Shown piece after piece: positions 1,948 through 33,738 of a stretch of 34,851 nt of DNA. A program made the translations under genes and the position numbers. Origin of the DNA: a virus; the IMG/VR virus record IMGVR_UViG_3300020183_000250, positions 1-34,851 of that record; one strand, 5' to 3'. The first letter of the stretch is position 1. Every line of letters starts with the position of its first letter. Below the pieces are notes generated by a model. That model searched no databases. It saw only the letters and a program-made list of their open reading frames with translations, and was not told where the DNA came from.

Positions 1948-3963
1948 ATGGCAAATTTTACAACTTCTCCTGGAGTAGCAATCAGTGAATTAGATAACAC
2001 CTTTTTAACTGGCCAACCCATTCAAGCTGGTGCTGCTATTATAGGCCCAACAGTTAAAGGTCCTGTTGAAAAACCAACCCTTGTAACCACTTATTCAGAT
2101 TTTGTAACATTATTTGGTGATACATTTGTAAGTGGTGGTCAATCATATTCTTATTTAACTTCAATTGCCGCAGCTAATTATTTCAACTATGGAGGAACTT
2201 CATTATTAGTTGCTCGTGTAGCAAGTGGTTCCTACACTTCAGCAATTACTAAAGATATAAACTCAGGAATAGGAATTACTTCAGCATCAGCTGTTCTTAA
2301 TTTAACGAATGCTGTTACTCAAGCATATACAGCTTCATTTAATGGAGTAAACGTAATATTATCAGGATCATCTGTTCAAAATATATTCAACAATGCTACA
2401 TCTTCAGGTGTTATTCCTTCAAACCCAACTAACTTCTATACAAATACAACTATTAACAGTAGTGCATCATTTATTTCTCCTAATATGACTGTAACTGCTT
2501 TAGCTCAAGGTATTGCTGGAAATTTGTATTATTATGTTTCCGGTTCAACTACAGTTTATTATAGTGGAGGAACTAATGCATCTTCTTTTGTCCTAGAAAC
2601 AATTTCAGAAGGAATCCTTATGAATAACTCAGGTTCTAACATGTTAGGATCTAATGGGGCCTTAAATTCAGGATCAGTATCTAATATTCGTTGGGAAATT
2701 ACAAATGCAAATACTGGGTCAGGTACATTTAATGTATTAGTTAGACGTGGTAATGATATTACTGATAATAAAGTAGTGTTAGAAGCTTGGAATAATTTAA
2801 CATTAGATCCAAATTCAACACGTTATATTTCTAGAATAATTGGTAATCAAGTATTAGATTATAATTCTGTAAATAATCAAATGGAATTATATGGTGAATA
2901 TCCAAATAATTCAAAATATATTCGTGTAAAAACTGTTAATTTACCTACACTAAATTATTTTGATTCTAACGGAATTGCAGTAAGTGCTTATACCTCATTA
3001 ATTCCTCTTAATGGAAGTGGTTCAGCAGGCGGTTCATTTTATAATGCTATTGGAAGTGTAAATAGTAACATCACTGTATACGATGCTATTTCAACTAATA
3101 CACAAGGATTAACAGGTGCTAGTTATAATAATATGATTGCACTTTTAGGTAATCCTGAAGCATATCAATTTAATGTACTATTTACTCCTGGTTTATTAAA
3201 TGATATCCATGTTACACAAGTTACTAATATTATCAATAATACAACTGCTAGAGGTGATAGTTTGTATGTAATGGATTTAGGAATATATGGTAGTTCACTT
3301 GGAGAAGTAGTAACACAAGCTCAAACTCGTGATACTTCTTACGCTGCAACATACTGGCCTTGGGTACGCATTATCGATCCAGGAACAGGAAAACAAGTAT
3401 GGGTTCCAGCTTCAACAGTAATCCCAGGTGTATATGCATTTAATGATAAAGTATCTGCTCCATGGTTTGCACCTGCAGGCATTAACCGCGGTGGGTTAAA
3501 CACAGTTTTACAAGCTGAATTGAAACTAACACAAGGTAATCGTGATACATTATATAGCAATAATATTAATCCAATTGCAACACTACCCCAACAAGGTGTT
3601 GTAGTATATGGTCAGAAAACATTACAAAAAGCTCAATCTGCTTTAGATCGTGTAAATGTACGTCGTTTAATGATTGAATTAAAATCATATATTCGTCAAA
3701 TTGCAGATACAATCGTATTTGAACAAAATACAATCACTACAAGAATAGCATTTACTTCAAGAGTTACTCCATATTTGGAATCAATTCAACAAAAACAAGG
3801 TTTATATGCATTTAAAGTAGTAATAGATGATACAAACAATGGTCCAGCAGTAATTGATCAAAACCAATTAATAGGTCAAATTTATATCCAACCAACACGC
3901 ACAGCTGAATTTATTTCATTAGATTTCATCTTGATGCCTACAGGAGCTGAATTCCCAGGGTAA
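1948..3963 (+). CDS. Contractile tail sheath protein, copy B (gp18-like paralogue)
   Basis: A second tail sheath protein of 671 residues, clearly paralogous to the preceding gene along its length. Shared blocks include QAGAAIIGPTVKG near the N-terminus, the PWFAPAGINRG block, YGQKTLQKAQSALDRVNVRR, and the end QLIGQIYIQPTRTAEFI. It differs mainly by about 80 extra residues in the N-terminal half, between the LLVARVASGS and SFVLETISEGI blocks. That insert is rich in Ser, Thr, Asn and Val and is likely a surface-exposed domain. It has its own late-promoter-like motif. Both copies look intact, with no stop or frameshift, so this is a functional duplication rather than decay. Possible outcomes are a mixed sheath or alternative virion forms; the sequence cannot decide. 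Confidence 0.95.
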   Translation: MANFTTSPGVAISELDNTFLTGQPIQAGAAIIGPTVKGPVEKPTLVTTYSDFVTLFGDTFVSGGQSYSYLTSIAAANYFNYGGTSLLVARVASGSYTSAITKDINSGIGITSASAVLNLTNAVTQAYTASFNGVNVILSGSSVQNIFNNATSSGVIPSNPTNFYTNTTINSSASFISPNMTVTALAQGIAGNLYYYVSGSTTVYYSGGTNASSFVLETISEGILMNNSGSNMLGSNGALNSGSVSNIRWEITNANTGSGTFNVLVRRGNDITDNKVVLEAWNNLTLDPNSTRYISRIIGNQVLDYNSVNNQMELYGEYPNNSKYIRVKTVNLPTLNYFDSNGIAVSAYTSLIPLNGSGSAGGSFYNAIGSVNSNITVYDAISTNTQGLTGASYNNMIALLGNPEAYQFNVLFTPGLLNDIHVTQVTNIINNTTARGDSLYVMDLGIYGSSLGEVVTQAQTRDTSYAATYWPWVRIIDPGTGKQVWVPASTVIPGVYAFNDKVSAPWFAPAGINRGGLNTVLQAELKLTQGNRDTLYSNNINPIATLPQQGVVVYGQKTLQKAQSALDRVNVRRLMIELKSYIRQIADTIVFEQNTITTRIAFTSRVTPYLESIQQKQGLYAFKVVIDDTNNGPAVIDQNQLIGQIYIQPTRTAEFISLDFILMPTGAEFPG

Positions 3964-3979
3964 AAATTAAAAAATTAGA

Positions 3980-4009: not shown

Positions 4010-4498
4010 ATGGCAATTTTAGATCAAAATCAAATATTTTTTACCCCGTTTGAGCCAAAACAAAGTAACCGCTTTGTAGCTACAATCGATGGTGTTCCTG
4101 CCTATTTAGTTAAAGGTGTAAGTGCAGTTAACTTAACTCAAACAGCAGTTGCTCTTAACCATATCAACATCCAACGATATGTAAAAGGAAAAACAGTTTG
4201 GGGTACAATTTCATTTACATTATATGAAGCAATTACTCCAAGTGGTGCTCAAGCAGTAATGGAATGGGTACGTTTAGGACACGAATCAGTAACAGGTAGA
4301 GATGGTTACTCTGATTTCTACAAGAAAGACATTACGTTTAACGTAATCGGACCTGTAGGTGATATCGTTTCTGAATGGGTTATTAAAGGAGCCATTATTA
4401 CAAGTGTTAACTTTGGTGACTATAGCTATGATGATGATGGAACCCCAGTAAACATCTCAGTTGAAGTACAACCAGATTACTGTGTATTGAATTTCTAA
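4010..4498 (+). CDS. Tail tube protein (gp19-like)
   Basis: A 162-residue protein of the T4 gp19/phage tail tube type, which stacks as hexameric rings to form the inner conduit for DNA. Features that fit are the N-terminal EPKQSNRFVATIDGVPAYLVKGV, the QRYVKGKTVWGTISFTLYEAI strand pattern, the helix ALQ-like segment with VMEWVRLGHESVTGRDGYSD, and the acidic-aromatic C-terminus (NFGDYSYDDDGTPVNISVEVQPDYCVLNF). Length is close to T4 gp19 (163 residues). Position directly after the sheath genes is the classic T4 order. A strong terminator follows within 30 nt, so this gene ends the sheath-tube transcription unit. Confidence 0.93.
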   Translation: MAILDQNQIFFTPFEPKQSNRFVATIDGVPAYLVKGVSAVNLTQTAVALNHINIQRYVKGKTVWGTISFTLYEAITPSGAQAVMEWVRLGHESVTGRDGYSDFYKKDITFNVIGPVGDIVSEWVIKGAIITSVNFGDYSYDDDGTPVNISVEVQPDYCVLNF

Positions 4499-4524
4499 TA
4501 TTAGATTAAACAACAAATACAATG

Positions 4525-4560
4525 AAAGCTCCAAAGAAATTTGGGGCTTTTATTTTTTTT
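4525..4560 (+). terminator. Rho-independent terminator after tail tube gene
   Basis: Bases 4525-4535 pair with 4540-4550 in an 11-bp stem (AAAGCTCCAAA / TTTGGGGCTTT, one G-T pair) closed by a GAAA tetraloop, followed by a T-rich tract to 4560. It separates the tail tube gene from the secreted-protein gene. The 3' arm also contributes the TTTG of a host-type promoter. Confidence 0.85.
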
Positions 4561-4571
4561 CAATATATTAG
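4540..4571 (+). promoter_or_regulatory. Bacteroidota-type promoter overlapping the terminator
   Basis: TTTG (4540-4543), a 20-nt spacer and TATATTAG (4564-4571) match the Bacteroidota primary-sigma consensus TTTG / TAnnTTTG at 5 of 6 fixed positions of the -10. The ATG at 4576 follows only 4 nt later, so transcription would start at or near the start codon (leaderless or nearly so). Confidence 0.6.
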
Positions 4572-4575
4572 ACTT

Positions 4576-6543
4576 ATGAAAAAACTATTATTATTTTTAC
4601 TATTAGCTAATATAGGATATGGTCAATATTGTCCTTCTTTAGGACCTGATCAAATATTGCCTTGTGGTGTAGGGTCAATTACTTTAACCGCAGATTTAAG
4701 TCAATGTGGTGTAGGTACTAACCCCAATCAAACAACAAATTATACTGTAGGAAGCATACCGTATGTTCCTTTATTAAATACAGGTACCCAACTGTTTATG
4801 ACAGATGATTCTCAACAAGGGCCATTTAATATTGGATTTTCATTTTGTTTCTTTGGACAAACGTATACTCAATTTTGGGTAGGTTCAAATGGATGGATTT
4901 CATTTTCTCCTGGTCAACCAACCACATTTACAACACAAACAATTCCTACAGGTAATTTTTTAGTACCTAAAAATTGTATTATGGGTCCTTGGCAAGATTG
5001 GCATCCTGGAATTGGAGGTCAAATTAGATACCAAACTACAGGAGTTGCCCCTTGTCGAAAATTAACTGTATCTTGGACAAACATGCCTATGTTTAGTTGT
5101 ACAGGCAACCAAGGAACATTTCATATTGTAATTTACGAATCTACAAATTATATTGAAAATTATATCCAAAACAAACCAGCTTGTTTGCAATGGCAAGGAG
5201 GAACAGCTACTGAAGGTATCCACAATACTGCAGGAACAATAGGTATTACAGTCCCTGGCCGTAATTCAACTGCTTGGACAGCAACAAATGATGCTTGGCG
5301 TTGGACTCCTAGTGGACCAGTAGTTAATCCTATTTTAGTATGGTATCAAGTAGGTAACCCTGCTCCAATTGGAACAGGAAATTCAATTACAGTTACACCA
5401 AACGGACCTACTCAATATACTTGTCATTTAAGTTACCCAACATGTAATGCTGGTTGGAATGTTTGTAATGGAAATGGTACTGCTATTGGGCCTGATACAA
5501 TATTAGTTGTACCTGGTCCCCCAATCCCATCAACAGGACCTATTAATGGATCAGATACAATATGTTATTTAAGTTCAAATGAAATATATGATGTTCCTTT
5601 AAATCCAACTTACAATTATTTATGGAGTACAGTTGGAACCCTAACCTCAGGACAAGGAACAAATCAAATTACAGTAGATTTTAGTTTATTCCCTGCAGGA
5701 TTTATCCCTGGTGCTATTCAAGTAACACCTGAAGCAAATGGATGTATTGGGCCAACAGTATCATTTGATGTAACAATATTTAATATAGTTCCTGTAATTG
5801 ATCCCATAGGACCATTCTGTTCGTACGACGAATTTGTTACTTTAAACGCGGTTCCTGCTGGAGGAATATTTAGTGGTAATGGTATTGTAGGTAATAATTT
5901 TACACCTCCACTTGCGGTAGGAACAAATATACTTACTTATACTTATACTCAAAGTGGATGTATTTTTGATACTACAACTACAGTAATTGTTAATCCACAA
6001 CCAACTCTTGATTCAATTACTCCATATAATCCATTCTATGAATTATGTGAAGGCGATTCAATAACATTAACATTTAGTGCCCTGTCAAATTTATCAGGAT
6101 ATAATGAATGGGCATTTATTGGAACAATTTATCAACAAGATAATTTAACTATTTCATTTGAAACCCCAGGAATGTTTCCTATTTCAGTAGCACATTATTC
6201 AAATGGATGTGTTTCTCCTATACAACAAACAGTAGTTACTATCGCACGTTGCCCTGAATTGTTATTTTATATTCCAAATACTTTTACCCCAGATGGAAAC
6301 GAACATAATAATGTATTTCAACCTGTATTTACAAATGGATTTGACCCATATGATTTTCATTTAGAAATTTACAATAGATGGGGAGAATTAATTTATGAGT
6401 CGTATAATTGTACAGAATATTGGGACGGAACATACAATAATACACCTTGTCCTGTAGGATTATACACATATAAAATCCAATTTGGATTTAAAGAAACAGA
6501 TAATGATCAAGTTGTAAGTGGAAATGTTAATCTTATTCGATAG
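4576..6543 (+). CDS. Secreted multidomain protein with T9SS type B (gliding-motility-associated) C-terminal domain
   Basis: A 655-residue protein. The start at 4576 is chosen because the upstream in-frame ATG at 4522 lies in the terminator stem, and because 4576 gives a textbook Sec signal peptide (MKKLLLFLLLANIGYG, likely cleaved before Q17). Residues about 60-245 form a Cys-containing beta-rich domain (IGFSFCFFGQTYTQFWVGSNGWISF, GPWQDWHPG, IGITVPGRN), as in Bacteroidota surface proteins. Residues about 255-555 hold repeated PKD/Ig-like segments. Residues 566-655 are a CHU_C/T9SS type B sorting domain: IPNTFTPDGNEHNNVF, FHLEIYNRWGELIYES, YWDGTYNN, CPVGLYTYKI, ending GNVNLIR. Known role of the family: Sec export, then outer-membrane translocation by the host type IX system. 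I infer a host-derived accessory gene exported to the infected cell surface. A virion adhesin is the alternative, but the signal peptide argues against it. Confidence 0.85.
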   Translation: MKKLLLFLLLANIGYGQYCPSLGPDQILPCGVGSITLTADLSQCGVGTNPNQTTNYTVGSIPYVPLLNTGTQLFMTDDSQQGPFNIGFSFCFFGQTYTQFWVGSNGWISFSPGQPTTFTTQTIPTGNFLVPKNCIMGPWQDWHPGIGGQIRYQTTGVAPCRKLTVSWTNMPMFSCTGNQGTFHIVIYESTNYIENYIQNKPACLQWQGGTATEGIHNTAGTIGITVPGRNSTAWTATNDAWRWTPSGPVVNPILVWYQVGNPAPIGTGNSITVTPNGPTQYTCHLSYPTCNAGWNVCNGNGTAIGPDTILVVPGPPIPSTGPINGSDTICYLSSNEIYDVPLNPTYNYLWSTVGTLTSGQGTNQITVDFSLFPAGFIPGAIQVTPEANGCIGPTVSFDVTIFNIVPVIDPIGPFCSYDEFVTLNAVPAGGIFSGNGIVGNNFTPPLAVGTNILTYTYTQSGCIFDTTTTVIVNPQPTLDSITPYNPFYELCEGDSITLTFSALSNLSGYNEWAFIGTIYQQDNLTISFETPGMFPISVAHYSNGCVSPIQQTVVTIARCPELLFYIPNTFTPDGNEHNNVFQPVFTNGFDPYDFHLEIYNRWGELIYESYNCTEYWDGTYNNTPCPVGLYTYKIQFGFKETDNDQVVSGNVNLIR

Positions 6544-6933: not shown

Positions 6934-6935
6934 TA

Positions 6936-16189: not shown

Positions 16190-16570
16190 ATGCCACACTT
16201 TGTAGATTCACGTATAAATGAAAATGTAGAAATAGCAACTGAATATTTTAAAGCATTAGTTTCTTCTAACTTTAAAGATGCTGAAAATAGACAAAAACAG
16301 TCTGCTGGGTCAATAGGTTTTATTCCATATAATATATCCTTTACTATGGATGGTATAGGAGGAATTAAAATCTATAATGAATTATCTTTAGACACTAGTT
16401 TTCTCCCTGCAGGATATACTAAAACTACTGATTTTATAGTAACAGGAGTAGATCATAAAATACAAAATGGGGATTGGGAAACAAGTATAAATGTAACCCT
16501 TATTCCTCGAACAAGCCCTATAAATAATGTTATCACCAGTAGTTTATCCTTTACTTCTCAAACTGAAGAA
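16190..16570 (+). repeat. Diverged direct repeat, copy 1 (hub domain)
   Basis: About 380 nt at the start of the SleB-like gene recur at the start of the VanY-like gene. The first ~70 nt are nearly identical, with only scattered third-position changes, and the 5' protein blocks match closely. It marks a tandem gene duplication followed by exchange of the enzyme domain. Confidence 0.85.
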
Positions 16571-17227
16571 ACTAGAGTTGATACTGCTCCTACAAATAAT
16601 AATACTGTATCTTCTCCTGCATCTACTACAGGTGTTGCTGTAACAGGGGGTGATGCTGATTTTTGGTCTTTATTAACTATATGTCTTTTTGAAGACGGAG
16701 ATGACCAAGCAAGAGCAGACATAGCTCAGTCTATATATAATCGAGTAGGATCAGGAGCATATTCAACTTCAATAGCAGCAGCAATAAAAAGAGATGGACA
16801 ATACGAACCAGCATTTGCGAAAGGTACTTCAAAAGTATCTACAGTTTGGAAAAATATCCAAAATAAAGCAACTGCTATTGCAGCAGTAAGAGCCACCAAA
16901 CCTAATACATATAAAGATGATACATCTGCTTTAAATGCCCTTAAAAGTGTTTATGAGGCTATAAAAGACCCAGCTAAACAAGAAGCATCTAAAACATTCA
17001 TTCAAGGAAGAACTGATTTTTTAAGTATTAGTCAAGGTACTGTAGATAAAAGAAATGCTAAAGTAAAAGCAGGATCATATGATCCAACTGGTAAACGTGG
17101 AACATTTTTAATGAGAAATAATGGAACCCCTAATAACGTATTTGGGTGGGCATATAATTATATTAAAAATGTTATTGCTCAACCTCCGGGACAAGATTGG
17201 TGGGATAAATATAAAGATCAATTTTAA
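16190..17227 (+). CDS. Hub-domain protein fused to SleB-like cell wall hydrolase
   Basis: A 345-residue two-part protein. Residues 1-~125 form a baseplate hub-like domain, shared almost unchanged with the next gene: SIGFIPYNISFTMDGIGGIKIYNELSLD, then DFIVTGVDHKIQNGDWETSI. After a Thr/Asn/Ser linker, residues ~155-345 resemble the SleB/Hydrolase_2 glycosidase fold: FWSLLTICLFEDGDDQARADIAQSIYNRV, with E168 as the probable catalytic Glu, and GQYEPAF in place of the usual QFS/QYEP segment. The likely role is local peptidoglycan cleavage during injection, as T4 gp5 does on the gp27 hub. Catalysis is inferred from motif similarity. There is no signal peptide, consistent with a virion enzyme. Confidence 0.75.
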   Translation: MPHFVDSRINENVEIATEYFKALVSSNFKDAENRQKQSAGSIGFIPYNISFTMDGIGGIKIYNELSLDTSFLPAGYTKTTDFIVTGVDHKIQNGDWETSINVTLIPRTSPINNVITSSLSFTSQTEETRVDTAPTNNNTVSSPASTTGVAVTGGDADFWSLLTICLFEDGDDQARADIAQSIYNRVGSGAYSTSIAAAIKRDGQYEPAFAKGTSKVSTVWKNIQNKATAIAAVRATKPNTYKDDTSALNALKSVYEAIKDPAKQEASKTFIQGRTDFLSISQGTVDKRNAKVKAGSYDPTGKRGTFLMRNNGTPNNVFGWAYNYIKNVIAQPPGQDWWDKYKDQF

Positions 17228-17229
17228 CT

Positions 17230-17587
17230 ATGCCTCATTTTGTAGATTCACGTATAAATGAAAATGTAGAGATAGCAACTGAATACTTCAAGGCATTAGT
17301 CTCCCAAAAAGATGGAGATAAAGCTTTTGCAGGTTCAATAGGTTTTATCCCTTATAATATGTCTTTTACAATGGATGGTATAGGGGGAATTAAAATCTAC
17401 AATGAATTATCTGTTGATACTAGTTTTTTACCTCCTGGCTATACTAAAACTACAGACTTTATAGTAACGGGCATTGATCATAAAATTCAAAATGGTGATT
17501 GGGAAACTAGTATTACTACTACTTTAATTCCTAGAACAAGCCCTATAAATAATATTATCACTAGTAGTTTATCCTTCCTTAGTCAAA
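17230..17587 (+). repeat. Diverged direct repeat, copy 2 (hub domain)
   Basis: Partner of the copy at 16190-16570. It is shorter by a few codons after residue 25 (SQKDGDKAFAG versus a longer segment in copy 1). Similarity ends around the SQTEE segment, where the linkers and enzyme domains begin. Confidence 0.85.
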
Positions 17588-18099
17588 CAGAAGAAGCCCG
17601 ATCAGACACTGCTCCTTCAGTTAATATCCCTGCAGGTACTGAAGGTGAAAATGGAAGACTCTCGGATAGTGCATTAAAAAGTGTAGGAATGGGGGATAAA
17701 AAATTAGCCATTGAAGCTGCTGATGCCTTTATGAGAATGGTAGAAGATATGAAAAAAGAAGGTTTAAAACCTCGCTTAAGCTCTGCTTATAGAACATTTG
17801 ACACTCAAAGTTCTATATTTGATTGGGAATATTATATATCTACCGGTGGATCATATACTGATAAAACTCCAAAACCAGGAGCTAAAAGACGTAAAAAAGG
17901 TACCGTCGATACAGCAGCAGCCTTCCCAGGAACATCCAACCATGGTTGGGGTAAAGCTATTGATATCTACCCTAAAAATGTACAAGATTGGATTAAGAAA
18001 AATGGTGTTAAATATGGGTGGTCTTGGTATGAAGGAAGATCAGTTAATGAAAACTGGCACTTTACTTATGATCCTTCCAAAACAGAAGTATACGTTTAA
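17230..18099 (+). CDS. Hub-domain protein fused to VanY-like (M15) peptidase
   Basis: A 289-residue paralogue of the preceding gene over its first ~125 residues, but with a different enzyme domain. Residues ~145-289 are a D-alanyl-D-alanine carboxypeptidase/endopeptidase of the VanY/M15 type: SAYR at 185-188, the SxHxxGxAxD motif SNHGWGKAID at 236-245, and ExxH at 274-277 followed by F. H238, D245 and H277 are the expected zinc ligands and E274 the catalytic Glu. All are intact, so an active metallopeptidase that cuts peptide cross-links is expected. It starts 2 nt after the upstream stop. A tail-tip lysin role is inferred from the shared hub domain. Confidence 0.85.
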   Translation: MPHFVDSRINENVEIATEYFKALVSQKDGDKAFAGSIGFIPYNMSFTMDGIGGIKIYNELSVDTSFLPPGYTKTTDFIVTGIDHKIQNGDWETSITTTLIPRTSPINNIITSSLSFLSQTEEARSDTAPSVNIPAGTEGENGRLSDSALKSVGMGDKKLAIEAADAFMRMVEDMKKEGLKPRLSSAYRTFDTQSSIFDWEYYISTGGSYTDKTPKPGAKRRKKGTVDTAAAFPGTSNHGWGKAIDIYPKNVQDWIKKNGVKYGWSWYEGRSVNENWHFTYDPSKTEVYV

Positions 18100-18845: not shown

Positions 18846-18877
18846 TTTGGTTTTTTAAAATTTAATTAGTATCTTTA
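18846..18877 (+). promoter_or_regulatory. Bacteroidota-type promoter for the polymerase gene
   Basis: TTTG (18846-18849), 20-nt spacer, TATCTTTA (18870-18877): a strong match to TTTG / TAnnTTTG. The ATG follows after 4 nt, so the transcript is probably leaderless. It marks the switch from late structural genes to replication genes. Confidence 0.7.
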
Positions 18878-18881
18878 CAGC

Positions 18882-20129
18882 ATGTACTGGCTGATAGAGG
18901 ACCCTAAACACATTGAATTACTTACAAGTTTAAAACATGAAGATGTTTATGTTGAAGTAATCCCCACTTCCCACAACTTACATCCAGTTGAAAACGATGT
19001 ATGTGCTATTTATCTTAGACCAAAAAAGGATACAAAAGGATACATTATACCAATTAATCATAGCGAAACAATAAATTCCACAATAGAGCAAGTTCAAGAC
19101 TTGTTAAATAGTATAGAAAGAATTTACGTAAGGGATAGAAAAGAATTTTTACATTATTTTCCCATTAAGCATTGTTACCAATCCTCACCCTCCCCACATA
19201 CGTATATACCGCAATTAACAACGGCTCACACGCAATTATACAGCAGGTATCCGCAAGTACCAAATTTAAACACTATTGTACCGATTGTTAAACACTATGA
19301 GGTATGTGAACAAAACCATGCTAATTTTAAAGGTGAAGTAAATCCATTTTACAACAAAGCAGCATTGGTGTTTAATCAACTAGAACGAGCGGGTATCAAA
19401 GTGGATCCATTGTTGTTTGAGGAGTACTTTGACCAACAAATAGACGAATTTGTATACACGCAATACAATCTAAACACATTAACAACAAGACCATCAAATA
19501 CATTTAATAATATTAATTTTTCGGCATTAAATAAAGACAATGGAGAAAGAAAATGTTTTATACCGCGCAATGATAAGTTTATCGAGATGGATATTTCTGC
19601 TTATCACCCTACCCTTCTTGCTAATTTACTTGACTATACTTTTGATAGTAGTGATATCCATGGCAGTTTTGCTAAGATGTATAATGTGGATTACGCCAAA
19701 GCAAAAGAGATCACGTTTAAGCAAATTTATGGTGGAGTTTGGAAAGAGTATAAAGAGTTGGAGTTTTTCAAACGAGTAATAGCATATACAGATCAACTAT
19801 GGGATGAATTCCAATACGGTGGAAAAGTTATTTGCCCTATTTCAGGACATGAATTTGTAAGAGCAGAGATGAATGAAATGAATCCTCAAAAGCTTTTAAA
19901 TTATATACTCCAAAACTTGGAGACCGCAAATAATGTTAATATACTATATGATATATTTAAGATATTACGCGGAAAAAAGACTAAATTAGTGTTATATGTG
20001 TATGATTCGTTTTTATTTGACTATGATAGTAACGAACCTGACGTAATGCTTGAAATATTAGGAATATTTAACAAATATAAGTTACAAATTAAAACAAAAG
20101 ACGGTAAAAATTACCACGAAATTAAATAA
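18882..20129 (+). CDS. Compact family A DNA polymerase
   Basis: A 415-residue polymerase of the Pol I (family A) type. The palm and fingers motifs are visible. TRPSNTFNNIN (202-212) precedes motif A, with D237 in FIEMDISAYHPTLLANLL. Motif B has K275, F279 and Y283 at exactly the spacing of E. coli K758-F762-Y766 (KEITFKQIYGG). Motif C, at LYVYDSFLFD, has D375 in place of the usual HDE, so the acidic E is replaced by S376. The N-terminal ~150 residues are too short for a normal 3'-5' exonuclease domain and lack its acidic motifs. T4 itself uses a family B polymerase, so the replisome is mixed. It is preceded by a host-type promoter. Confidence 0.85.
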   Translation: MYWLIEDPKHIELLTSLKHEDVYVEVIPTSHNLHPVENDVCAIYLRPKKDTKGYIIPINHSETINSTIEQVQDLLNSIERIYVRDRKEFLHYFPIKHCYQSSPSPHTYIPQLTTAHTQLYSRYPQVPNLNTIVPIVKHYEVCEQNHANFKGEVNPFYNKAALVFNQLERAGIKVDPLLFEEYFDQQIDEFVYTQYNLNTLTTRPSNTFNNINFSALNKDNGERKCFIPRNDKFIEMDISAYHPTLLANLLDYTFDSSDIHGSFAKMYNVDYAKAKEITFKQIYGGVWKEYKELEFFKRVIAYTDQLWDEFQYGGKVICPISGHEFVRAEMNEMNPQKLLNYILQNLETANNVNILYDIFKILRGKKTKLVLYVYDSFLFDYDSNEPDVMLEILGIFNKYKLQIKTKDGKNYHEIK

Positions 20130-20134
20130 AAGTT

Positions 20135-20596
20135 ATGTATAGTACTTTGGACCACCCTCGTCGTATGTATAATCAATTCGACTATGATTTTACATTTGAT
20201 AATTTATTGATGAACAATAGACTGTTTTGTACTTTTACTGCAATAGAGGATTTAGAGGCGTTGGTTGATGAATTAACAAAACGCTATTCCATCATGTATA
20301 ATAAAATGTTTGTATTGCATGTTAAAAGCAATAACGAATATGTTATTACATATAATGTTGATCAAGGTAATATCAACGACATCCCCGAAAACACCATTCT
20401 AGTACATAGAAAAAAAGAATCAAACACACTTTATACCATTAATGCTCTAAATGAGTTAATTAAGAAATTAAACGGTGGTGTAGTTGATACAAATTATGCA
20501 GTAAACTGGCACCACTATAGAAATTGTATATTGTTAACTCAACACAATGAGATTAAACAATTGAATACAAAAATATTTAAAATAGTTGAATTATGA
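20135..20596 (+). CDS. Unknown protein in replication operon
   Basis: A 153-residue protein, start ATG in the context AAAAGTTATG shared with other starts. Visible blocks include MNNRLFCTFTAIEDLEALVDELTKRYSIMYNKMFVLHVK, YVITYNVDQGN and RKKESNTLYTINALNELIKKLNGG. An alpha/beta composition with no catalytic signature. I have an impression of similar small proteins next to phage polymerase genes but no function. Its stop overlaps the next start by ATGA, so translation is coupled. Confidence 0.75.
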   Translation: MYSTLDHPRRMYNQFDYDFTFDNLLMNNRLFCTFTAIEDLEALVDELTKRYSIMYNKMFVLHVKSNNEYVITYNVDQGNINDIPENTILVHRKKESNTLYTINALNELIKKLNGGVVDTNYAVNWHHYRNCILLTQHNEIKQLNTKIFKIVEL

Positions 20597-20659
20597 AAAA
20601 AGTAACTCTATCTGAAGAATTTAAAAGAATGCAAAAGCTTGCAGGGATTCAATTAAATG
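20576..20659 (+). repeat. Direct repeat of gene start (tag cassette), copy 1
   Basis: 61 nt (20576-20636) are identical to 20858-20918, and similarity continues to about 20659. The repeat includes the last codons of the upstream gene, the leader, the ATG and the first 23 codons. Confidence 0.9.
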
Positions 20660-20862
20660 AGGCCTTTAATCCATTTTTAGATACTGAAGAAGGTGGATAT
20701 ATGAGAGAATATATTGATTCTATAGCAGAAGAAGAAGGATTAGATTTATATTATCGTAATGAATTCAACATAGCTTTCAATTCAGCATTAGCTAAACTTA
20801 AAAAAGACCATCCTAAATTAGATTTTGAAGCCATCGAAGCCAATAGAGAATCTTTCTTTTAA
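20593..20862 (+). CDS. Small protein with duplicated N-terminal tag, copy 1
   Basis: An 89-residue protein. Residues 1-23 (MKKVTLSEEFKRMQKLAGIQ then LNE) are identical, except for one L/I exchange, to the next gene. The remainder (AFNPFLDTEEGGYMREYIDS...) is unrelated and acidic. The shared segment ends exactly at L-N-E, which matches the (L/I)xE rule for cleavage by T4-type prohead protease gp21. I infer a removable head-targeting peptide, as on T4 internal proteins, but this is not shown. Start overlaps the upstream stop by ATGA. Confidence 0.75.
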   Translation: MKKVTLSEEFKRMQKLAGIQLNEAFNPFLDTEEGGYMREYIDSIAEEEGLDLYYRNEFNIAFNSALAKLKKDHPKLDFEAIEANRESFF

Positions 20863-20941
20863 AATAGTTGAATTATGAAAAAAGTAACTCTATCTGAAGA
20901 ATTTAAAAGAATGCAAAAACTTGCAGGAATTCAAATTAATG
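20858..20941 (+). repeat. Direct repeat of gene start (tag cassette), copy 2
   Basis: Copy 2 of the tag cassette. It retains AAAATAGTTGAATT before its ATG, which in copy 1 is the end of an upstream coding region. This shows that copy 1 was the source and copy 2 derives from it. Confidence 0.9.
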
Positions 20942-21435
20942 AAGATCTTCAAGAAGTTATATTATATGCTACTTGGGTATTAGATACTCCTGAAGCTAGA
21001 AAAGAAGATATAGTTATATCCCCAAGTATTTCTGAAGATAATATTCCTTCAAGTTTTAGTGGGGATTCTACCCCTAATGGATATACTGGGGCTAATAAAA
21101 CAATATTATGTACTAATTACCCATGGACTTTAGTAAGTGAAACCAATGAAGTTAATTTAGAAGATATAAAAATACTAATAGTTAAATTTAAAAAACCACT
21201 TACAGATGTATTCCTAGATGATGATTTTTACATAGAAACCTTTGGAATTGATGAAGAACCAGATTTAGATTATTCTAAAGATATACCACTATCTGAATTA
21301 GTACCATATGGGTTAAATACTAATGATAGATGGTATGGTTGTTATGTAAATAATATTTCTTCTGGTGAGGTAATTGCTAAAAAAGTAGGTTATCAAAGTG
21401 AAAATAGAAGTGAAAGTGAATGGTCATCTTTTTAA
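20875..21435 (+). CDS. Small protein with duplicated N-terminal tag, copy 2
   Basis: A 186-residue protein with the same 23-residue N-terminal tag, ending I-N-E at residues 21-23, followed by an unrelated 163-residue body: DLQEVILYATWVLDTPEARKEDIVISP, then a run of mixed strand segments and a Ser/Glu-rich end (SENRSESEWSSF). No known domain is recognised in the body. The tag-plus-variable-body arrangement resembles T4 internal head proteins or a modular targeting system. A plain duplicated 5' end with no targeting role is the alternative. Confidence 0.75.
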   Translation: MKKVTLSEEFKRMQKLAGIQINEDLQEVILYATWVLDTPEARKEDIVISPSISEDNIPSSFSGDSTPNGYTGANKTILCTNYPWTLVSETNEVNLEDIKILIVKFKKPLTDVFLDDDFYIETFGIDEEPDLDYSKDIPLSELVPYGLNTNDRWYGCYVNNISSGEVIAKKVGYQSENRSESEWSSF

Positions 21436-30643: not shown

Positions 30644-30675
30644 TTTGGCCCCTATATGGGGCCTTTTTATATTTC
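30644..30675 (+). promoter_or_regulatory. Bacteroidota-type promoter overlapping a terminator
   Basis: TTTG (30644-30647), 20-nt spacer containing the terminator hairpin, and TATATTTC (30668-30675), one mismatch in the -10. The ATG at 30681 follows 5 nt later, again a leaderless or near-leaderless arrangement. Confidence 0.6.
30647..30668 (+). terminator. Rho-independent terminator after lysis cassette
   Basis: A perfect 6-bp GC stem, GGCCCC (30647-30652) with GGGGCC (30658-30663), loop TATAT, followed by five T. It ends the lysis operon and lies within the spacer of the next promoter. Confidence 0.85.
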
Positions 30676-30680
30676 ATACC

Positions 30681-31697
30681 ATGCAACAAAAATATTTACC
30701 TTGGTTTTTGCTGTTTTGTGCACTAGGTTTGTCAACAACAGCAGCTTATTATAGTGTAATCGGTTTATCTGTGGTATTTACCGGAGTAGCTATACCTGTG
30801 ATTGTAATGGGGTCATTTTTAGAAGTATCTAAAATTGCAATTGCAACATATCTTCATAATGCTTGGAAAAAAACATATACACTTTTAAAAGTATATTTGA
30901 CTATAGCACTAGTAGTATTATCAGTTATTACTTCTATTGGAATTTATGGTTTGTTAAGTACTGGATTTCAAGAAAATATTATTAAACTTGAAATCGGAAC
31001 TAAACAAATCCAAAATATAGAGGTTAAAAAACAAAGATTTGAGGAAATCAAACTTGAATTATCCAAAGAAAAAACAACCTTAGATAAAGATATTTCTCAG
31101 TTACGCAATGCTTTATCTACAAATACAACTACTCAAACAGTAGATGCTAAAACTGGACAATTAGTTACAAAAGCAAATAATGCTAACCGTAAATCATTTG
31201 AAACACAACTTGCTGGGGCACAAGTAAATAGAGACAAACTATCTACTAAAATAGATGCTTTAAACGATTCAATTACAAATCTAGATATTCAAATCTTAGG
31301 TATGGAATCTAAAGCAAGTGAATCAAATGAATTAGGTGCCGTACAATATGTAAGTGAAATTACGGGGTCTGACGTTAAAACAGTGGCAAATTGGTTTATA
31401 TTCATGTTGATCTTTGTGTTTGATCCATTAGCTATTACTCTTATTATAGCTACAAATCAAGCGTTTGAACAGCGCAAACCTAAAACAAATATTTACGGTG
31501 AACCAAAACCTATTGAACCTGAACCTGTAGTTAAACCTGAACCGACTTCAAGAGAAATAATTGAACAAGAAAAACAACAAATCCAAAACGAAATATATCG
31601 TATTCAACGTTCAGGAGTATCAGGAAGAAAAGCAGGGCCGGCAATTAATCAACTTAAAAATCGTTTACAAGATTTAGATAATCAAATAATTTACTAA
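30681..31697 (+). CDS. Membrane protein with large coiled-coil domain
   Basis: A 338-residue protein. The start at 30681 is chosen over the upstream in-frame start at 30606, which would span the terminator. Three N-terminal TM segments (about 7-25, 27-48, 68-94) are followed by a ~130-residue coiled coil (roughly 97-215), a fourth TM at about 236-257 (FIFMLIFVFDPLAITLII), then a Pro/Glu-rich stretch (KPIEPEPVVKPEP) and a C-terminal helical segment. No enzyme motif. I do not recognise a family. The architecture suggests an inner-membrane scaffold; superinfection exclusion or membrane remodelling are possibilities only. Confidence 0.75.
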   Translation: MQQKYLPWFLLFCALGLSTTAAYYSVIGLSVVFTGVAIPVIVMGSFLEVSKIAIATYLHNAWKKTYTLLKVYLTIALVVLSVITSIGIYGLLSTGFQENIIKLEIGTKQIQNIEVKKQRFEEIKLELSKEKTTLDKDISQLRNALSTNTTTQTVDAKTGQLVTKANNANRKSFETQLAGAQVNRDKLSTKIDALNDSITNLDIQILGMESKASESNELGAVQYVSEITGSDVKTVANWFIFMLIFVFDPLAITLIIATNQAFEQRKPKTNIYGEPKPIEPEPVVKPEPTSREIIEQEKQQIQNEIYRIQRSGVSGRKAGPAINQLKNRLQDLDNQIIY

Positions 31698-32868: not shown

Positions 32869-33028
32869 ATTCTATTGGCATAGCAATTGGGATATGCACT
32901 TCAAACAATTAGCATTAATACCTACCATATTCATTATCGCAAGTCGATATAACCAAACGCGTTTTACTATACTTAGTTTCAATTTCTTAGTATGGGACTT
33001 TGGCGTATCTTATTTTAAGTACAAATGA
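32858..33028 (+). CDS. Tiny unknown protein coupled to GH16 gene
   Basis: A 56-residue ORF, MKIKFYWHSNWDMHFKQLAL..., aromatic-rich and basic, with a moderately hydrophobic middle (IPTIFIIASR). It overlaps the preceding tiny ORF by 11 nt and the following GH16 gene by ATGA, so it may mainly couple translation. Function unknown. Confidence 0.5.
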   Translation: MKIKFYWHSNWDMHFKQLALIPTIFIIASRYNQTRFTILSFNFLVWDFGVSYFKYK

Positions 33029-33738
33029 AAAACACAATACAATGGGCCGGGTATGAATGGCTAACAGAAGAACGTTGGGGACAAATGCACCCGGAGAAGC
33101 CTAAGATGTGGTATGATGCTACATGCATTCTTCAAGCAGACAATACAGGTGAGTTGCATTTACTCACAAAGAAACATGAAAAGAAGTTTGGTCAAATCAA
33201 ATCTCCAATTGGAATAGGATTAGTATCATGCACAGAACAATTTGGATATGGTACTTTTAGCATTGAAGCCAAGCTACCTGCAGGACCTAACCTTTGGCCT
33301 GCATTTTGGATGTATGCATGGGAAACATGGCCACCTGAGATAGATGTATTTGAAGCTTACTCATACAGTAATAGCAGTTACATTAATCGCAACATGGATC
33401 TGCTTCGAGGTAAATGGTATCGAGTTCAAACCAATGTGCACTTGGGCCAAGTACCAAACAACTTCAATGCAGGTGCAGAGAATGGGCGAATTGCTCTACG
33501 AAAGGATCCTACCCGACATTTTATTGAGTATCGTGTAGATTGGACTCCAGAACACATACAGATTTGGTATGATGGCAACATGGTAAGATGCATTACAGAT
33601 GCAAGCATCTTATCTCAATTTGTCGGCAAGACAATGAATGTAGTTATTAATAACGGCATACAAGACTCATACGATACCACTCGAACAGAGTTATCCTCAT
33701 TAACAGTAAGAAATTTTAAATACACTCCTTATGAATAA
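33025..33738 (+). CDS. Glycoside hydrolase family 16 enzyme
   Basis: A 237-residue beta-jelly-roll glycanase. The active site PPEIDVFEAY matches E-x-D-x-x-E of GH16, with E105 as nucleophile, D107 assisting and E110 as acid/base. NLWPAFWMYAWE before it and the aromatic YRVDWTPEHIQIWYDG after it are also typical of laminarinase/agarase-type members. It covers the catalytic domain only. No signal peptide, so the enzyme would stay in the cytosol or be released at lysis, unless it is a virion component. The substrate (beta-1,3-glucan, agar, carrageenan or another polysaccharide) cannot be told from the sequence. The next gene overlaps its end by 8 nt. Confidence 0.82.
   Translation: MKNTIQWAGYEWLTEERWGQMHPEKPKMWYDATCILQADNTGELHLLTKKHEKKFGQIKSPIGIGLVSCTEQFGYGTFSIEAKLPAGPNLWPAFWMYAWETWPPEIDVFEAYSYSNSSYINRNMDLLRGKWYRVQTNVHLGQVPNNFNAGAENGRIALRKDPTRHFIEYRVDWTPEHIQIWYDGNMVRCITDASILSQFVGKTMNVVINNGIQDSYDTTRTELSSLTVRNFKYTPYE

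Follow-up and report, generated by a model that had tools for sequence, protein, structure and literature searches.

A probable composite of terminator and host-type promoter

We find that positions 4525-4578 of IMG/VR virus record IMGVR_UViG_3300020183_000250 very likely form a composite of a terminator and a host-type (housekeeping sigma) promoter, followed by a message that would be leaderless (Table 1). The window here means the whole stretch of DNA analyzed, 34,851 nucleotides long. Directly observed are the anatomy of the element, its conservation, its spacing and, in the homologues of a second site at 30647, covariation of the hairpin.

The hairpin consists of a 5' arm (AAAGCTCCAAA, 4525-4535), a GAAA loop (4536-4539) and a 3' arm (TTTGGGGCTTT, 4540-4550), giving a stem of 11 pairs that includes one T.G wobble. 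Folded as coding-strand RNA it reached -18.1 kcal/mol (z -4.5), a value equalled by 0/200 shuffles, and a stricter terminator scan returned only two terminators in the window, this one among them. A stable GC-containing hairpin and a T-rich tail thus stand together on the transcribed strand, as expected of an intrinsic terminator. The preliminary description had proposed that the 3' arm of this stem supplies the TTTG of a host-type promoter, and the coordinates bear this out exactly: TTTG (4540-4543) is followed after precisely 20 nt by TATATTAG (4564-4571) and, 4 nt further on, by the ATG (4576-4578). The spacing is also kept in relatives, such that the length from TTTG to the -7 box is constant across 18 aligned sequences, two of the relatives (L086 and L089) having TATATTTG as their -7 element.

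By their sequence, such TTTG/TAnnTTTG sites are the published Bacteroidota housekeeping promoter (PMC6847099, PMC7366714), and they share motifs, spacing and -7-to-predicted +1 distance with sigma ABfr promoters of that phylum (PMC6847099, PMC9723704, PMC7366714). Positions 4540-4571 have the -33 element, the -7 element and the spacing of this class with one -7 mismatch, in that TATATTAG is without one nearly invariant T of the Bacteroidota -7 consensus. The phage sites differ from the cellular ones in that the -33 element and spacer double as a terminator hairpin, and in their tight TTTGG-N19 form, whereas the -33 motif of F. johnsoniae is weak and barely visible (PMC6847099). A simple sigma-70 scan, which is ill-suited to Bacteroidota, gave matches no commoner than in shuffles.

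Table 1. Features of the window, with strand and the evidence or context for each.
Feature	Position	Strand	Evidence or context
Tail tube gene, upstream unit	4010..4498	+	PHROG 4542 tail tube, E 2e-24; late motif at 3979
Terminator hairpin core (putative)	4525..4550	+	11 bp, GAAA loop; fold, stricter scan and relatives
-33 element TTTG, within hairpin 3' arm	4540..4543	+	Sequence and spacing statistics
T-rich tail, doubling as -33/-7 spacer	4551..4560	+	Sequence; 18-sequence alignment
-7 element TATATTAG	4564..4571	+	Host consensus TAnnTTTG
Predicted secreted protein gene	4576..6543	+	CHU_C 1e-13, PKD_6; start conserved in relatives
Phage late motif ATATTTATAA	6548..6557	+	Precedes gene 6562; secreted gene lies between -7 box and motif
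Host-type promoter TTTG-N20-TATCTTTA, no hairpin	18846..18877	+	Near-leaderless; ATG 18882 at 4 nt
Host-type promoter TTTGG-N19-TATATTAA	21441..21472	+	Precedes single-strand-binding protein gene (21501), leader ~24 nt
-33 element TTTG, second composite	30644..30647	+	Foot of hairpin 5' arm
Hairpin GGCCCC-TATAT-GGGGCC occupying promoter spacer	30647..30663	+	Fold z -1.8; compensatory changes in homologues
-7 element TATATTTC, also part of T-rich tail	30668..30675	+	Sequence and homologues
Predicted membrane protein gene	30681..31697	+	ATG 5 nt downstream of -7 element TATATTTC

Promoter spacing is fixed while hairpins move

Promoter spacing was counted in 81 loci (803 kb), made up of the window and 80 loci picked solely by tail tube protein similarity. 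On the intergenic coding strand, the pattern TTTG-Nk-TATATT occurred 25 times at k=20 and 9 times at k=19, with 0-5 occurrences at any other k, and the non-coding strand of these loci gave no spacing peak; the promoter sites listed from them mostly read TTTGG-N19-TATATT. For two long relatives (G001, 166 kb, and G002, 174 kb), 18/18 exact promoter matches lay on the gene-direction strand of each record, and a reversed control pattern produced two matches against the 18 of the promoter pattern.

We evaluated the overlap of terminators with promoters on deduplicated, intergenic terminators from loci not selected via promoter sequence; loci that had been retrieved with a promoter or hairpin pattern were excluded as biased, and the statistic was recomputed without their terminators. 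In 33 cases a TTG stood at N20 relative to a -7-like box that lay no more than 20 nt from the hairpin. The other 23 TTG offsets (8 to 31) in the same terminators averaged 2.6 (at most 9), and a swap control with upstream and downstream halves exchanged averaged 5.7 (at most 14), the sequences being related throughout and the counts not independent events. Among the 33, the TTG was in the 5' arm in 22, in the loop in 3, in the 3' arm in 3 and immediately upstream of the hairpin in 5.

Almost every relative has a hairpin after the tube gene, and at these junctions TA stands at exactly N20 from the TTG in 29/29 complete unique CTTG-type cases, three of which (L018, L019, L027) have the TTG 3' of the hairpin. 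The junction offset histogram holds 28 at N20 and at most 8 at any other offset. Within these 28, between 4 and 19 nt of hairpin lie past the TTG and the remaining spacer compensates, although these junctions were picked for N20 and the unconditioned evidence is the histogram together with the 29/29. Relatives keep TTG-N20-TA..TT while the sequence, size and position of the hairpin relative to the TTG all change, and this constant -33/-7 spacing under differing hairpin geometry upholds the terminator/promoter overlap of the preliminary description.

It is unlikely, in our assessment, that the site is a plain terminator with an incidental TTTG, the secreted gene being expressed by read-through or from the -7 box alone, which may act as a weak late promoter. 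Pairing with CAAA would force the TTTG in any case, so that at the secreted-gene site promoter selection and stem pairing are inseparable; two close relatives (L005 and L010) carry a phage late motif, TATATTTATA, at the equivalent place; and of 40 terminators in 800 kb of MAG DNA from Bacteroidota, 18 are closely followed by a -7-like box with no TTG at N20. Against this, TTG-N20 is enriched across differing hairpins, and three relatives (L022, L014, L063) retain the TTTG-N20 promoter outside the hairpin. Upstream of 4576, neither the window nor any of 17 aligned carriers has the late motif ATATTTAT, which argues against a weak late promoter at the -7 position. Moreover, TTG at N19/20 was found at 8/16 phage terminators (G001, G002 and the window) versus 0/18 of the MAG terminators followed by a -7-like box (Fisher p 0.0007), and the composite is present at 8/23 co-directional terminators in the same phage sequences. 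Judged by these counts, the overlap of putative terminator and promoter is not chance, and the composite recurs as a design across this phage group rather than being a single curiosity.

A second composite with a covarying hairpin

The same logic had been described as recurring at 30644-30683, and a hairpin/promoter composite does recur there, but its TTTG stands outside the 3' arm, at the foot of the 5' arm; the hairpin instead forms the N20 spacer, and the -7 box itself forms most of the T-rich tail. Homologues of the 30681 gene mostly have a TTG at N20 and an ATG 4-5 nt past the -7 box, with exceptions at L181 (N19) and at L169 and L174 (TTAG replacing TTTG). Their paired stem changes read GGAGCCCC/GGGGCTCC, GGAGCTCC/GGAGCTCC, GGAGTCCC/GGGACTCC and AAGCCCC/GGGGCTT; across nine homologues in one register, 72/72 cells are paired, 4/8 pairs have double changes, and 0/500 shuffles reach the observed covariation score. 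On this measure, the hairpin at 30647 is maintained through compensatory changes. One homologue (L170 2501) is fused to an upstream coding stretch and is without the composite, possibly through deletion or misassembly. The 30681 protein itself gave only a weak, sub-threshold Tetraspanin match, and a PHROGs search returned no family for it or for the secreted protein.

That the 30647 hairpin fills the spacer in every close homologue would also suit a hairpin that is part of the promoter, recognized by polymerase as DNA in the manner of phage N4, rather than a terminator. We consider this very improbable, and rejected it on the sliding position of the hairpin and on strand asymmetry: the hairpin shifts relative to -33/-7 rather than holding the fixed position of an N4-type promoter, the T-rich tail is on its 3' side, and the G.U pair of the 4525 stem suits coding-strand RNA, a 32-base stretch of the opposite strand folding to just -8.7 kcal/mol versus the -18.1 given above. 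Most promoters of the class are, in addition, hairpin-free, with 4% having a hairpin in a broad virus sample.

A predicted leaderless start

The -7 box of F. psychrophilum spans -12 to -5 (PMC9723704), and 4-5 nt separate the -7 box from the transcription start in F. johnsoniae (PMC6847099). These published distances therefore place the predicted +1 on the A of the ATG (4576) and, at the other sites, at 18882 and 30680-30681, and the message for the secreted protein probably starts at 4576 and is leaderless, making the near-leaderless start first proposed if anything over-cautious. Translation from an ATG at 4522 in frame through the hairpin is hardly credible, open as the frame is from there and A-rich as its upstream context may be: this ATG is missing in carriers (e.g., L088, L089, L131), homologues align starting at ATG 4576, the spacer differs by 1 nt between L012 and L013, and the hairpin occurs even without the secreted gene. 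The 4522 start was rejected because it is not conserved in carriers, which leaves 4576 as the likely start.

In an IMG/VR sample, TTTGG-N19-TATATT sites were fetched on condition of an ATG at most 30 nt downstream, and the comparison uses the distance distribution alone, not totals (ORFs of at least 50 codons; box of 8 nt). Among the matches listed, the first ORF ATG lay 3-6 nt past the box in 37/181 sites (20 at 4 nt) and at 7-10 nt in 5 sites, with a rise again at ~14-30 nt; at a control spacing (N16), 2/42 among the matches listed had the ATG at 3-6 nt. By this distribution, the near-ATG sites (4-5 nt) are a separate, putatively leaderless peak in virus promoters, to be set, with differing denominators, against the 5.5% of mapped mRNAs that are leaderless in F. 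psychrophilum (PMC9723704). Leaders under 10 nt make up about 3.7% in B. thetaiotaomicron (PMC7366714), and the virus sites resemble leaderless mRNAs of Flavobacteria and Bacteroides in having the start codon at the predicted +1.

Flanking genes and the late motif

The downstream product (655 aa) had been called a secreted protein, and the prediction agrees: the C-terminal domain is of the type IX secretion kind (Pfam CHU_C), and the N terminus looks signal-peptide-like by eye. Its relatives came from 34 genome contigs, of which 33 carry a Bacteroidota label. At positions 4576-6543 the phage thus encodes, between tail genes, a predicted substrate of type IX secretion (CHU_C, PKD). The close relatives L005 and L010 have no secreted gene at the equivalent junction: there the next tail gene, with TATATTTATAACCAT-ATG, comes straight after the same hairpin. 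For L005 the break in the alignment falls at window 4569/6548, past the -7 box and ahead of the late motif. Since the hairpin is present there without the secreted gene, the composite would be available to whichever gene comes next. Remoter secreted-gene homologues have the late motif or other signals in place of the composite.

A conserved ATATTTATA/T motif with no -33 element lies upstream of structural genes and their homologues at 104, 1926, 3979 and 6548 in the window, with further positions at 6935, 7992, 10323 and 18102. As ATATTTAT, the late motif precedes genes 132, 1948, 4010, 6562, 6974, 8019, 10344 and 18114. It looks like the late promoter of this phage group and is comparable with the T4 late -10 element. 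At L049, L056, L065 and tube junctions such as L051, TTG-N20-TATATTGA is followed by TATTTATC, a host-type promoter overlapping the late motif, and this arrangement suggests genes with both early and late starts.

Elsewhere in the window we observed two tandem, clearly paralogous tail sheath genes (132-1901 and 1948-3963), adjacent genes with a common N-terminal part (MPHFVDSRINENVEIATEYFKALVS) and differing C-terminal parts (16190-17227 and 17230-18099), adjacent proteins with an identical initial MKKVTLSEEFKRMQKLAGIQ tag and upstream sequence AAAATAGTTGAATT (20593-20862 and 20875-21435), and a gene with a Glycosyl hydrolase family 16 domain (33025-33738; Pfam 2.6e-15). A nucleotide search against named phages gave one match, with 71.6% identity over 14% of the query, to an unannotated 634,780-base uncultured phage record.

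Proposed mechanism and relation to known systems

Polymerase arriving from the tail genes would form the 4525-4550 hairpin and release in the T-rich tail at ~4555-4560, a point that overlaps the next promoter. There, host holoenzyme would re-initiate ~20 bp further on, with the TTTG of the 3' arm as -33 element, a 20-nt spacer made up of the remaining arm and the T tail, and the adjoining TATATTAG as -7 box, and the new transcript would begin at 4576. Termination, initiation, the exact +1 and the time of expression are what we infer here from sequence. A polymerase stalled over the promoter might either block it, as a switch, or be a mere consequence of space economy. As a transcription switch, which we think conceivable yet doubtful, polymerases terminating over -33 to +1 would shut the host-type promoter during heavy late transcription, and early leaderless downstream expression would then fall as upstream late transcription rises, with no regulator protein.

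The element resembles intrinsic (Rho-independent) terminators in its GC-containing intergenic hairpin and T tail, and differs in that the phage T tail enters, or partly consists of, the -7 promoter element. In the E. coli frd terminator/ampC attenuator, one hairpin likewise ends one unit inside the control region of the next, but there it comes after the ampC promoter and belongs to the leader, whereas the phage hairpin is inside the promoter. Phage morons are acquired genes with their own promoter and terminator, and the secreted gene is like them a non-structural gene among tail genes that is missing from close relatives; unlike in morons, the phage terminator and promoter are fused and already there without the gene. 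A search of the open-access literature returned no account of overlapping terminator-promoter composites.

The composites point to a compact, checkable rule for the borders of transcription units, in which a hairpin and the -33/-7 elements share bases at a fixed 20-nt spacing. The rule would cover Bacteroidota phages that are abundant as a group and whose gene regulation seems to have received little study. Leaderless host-type transcripts are indicated as a distinct class in Bacteroidota viruses, in the context of a phylum that does without Shine-Dalgarno pairing. With terminator and promoter within about 50 bp, the elements may also provide small ready-made parts for work in Bacteroidota.
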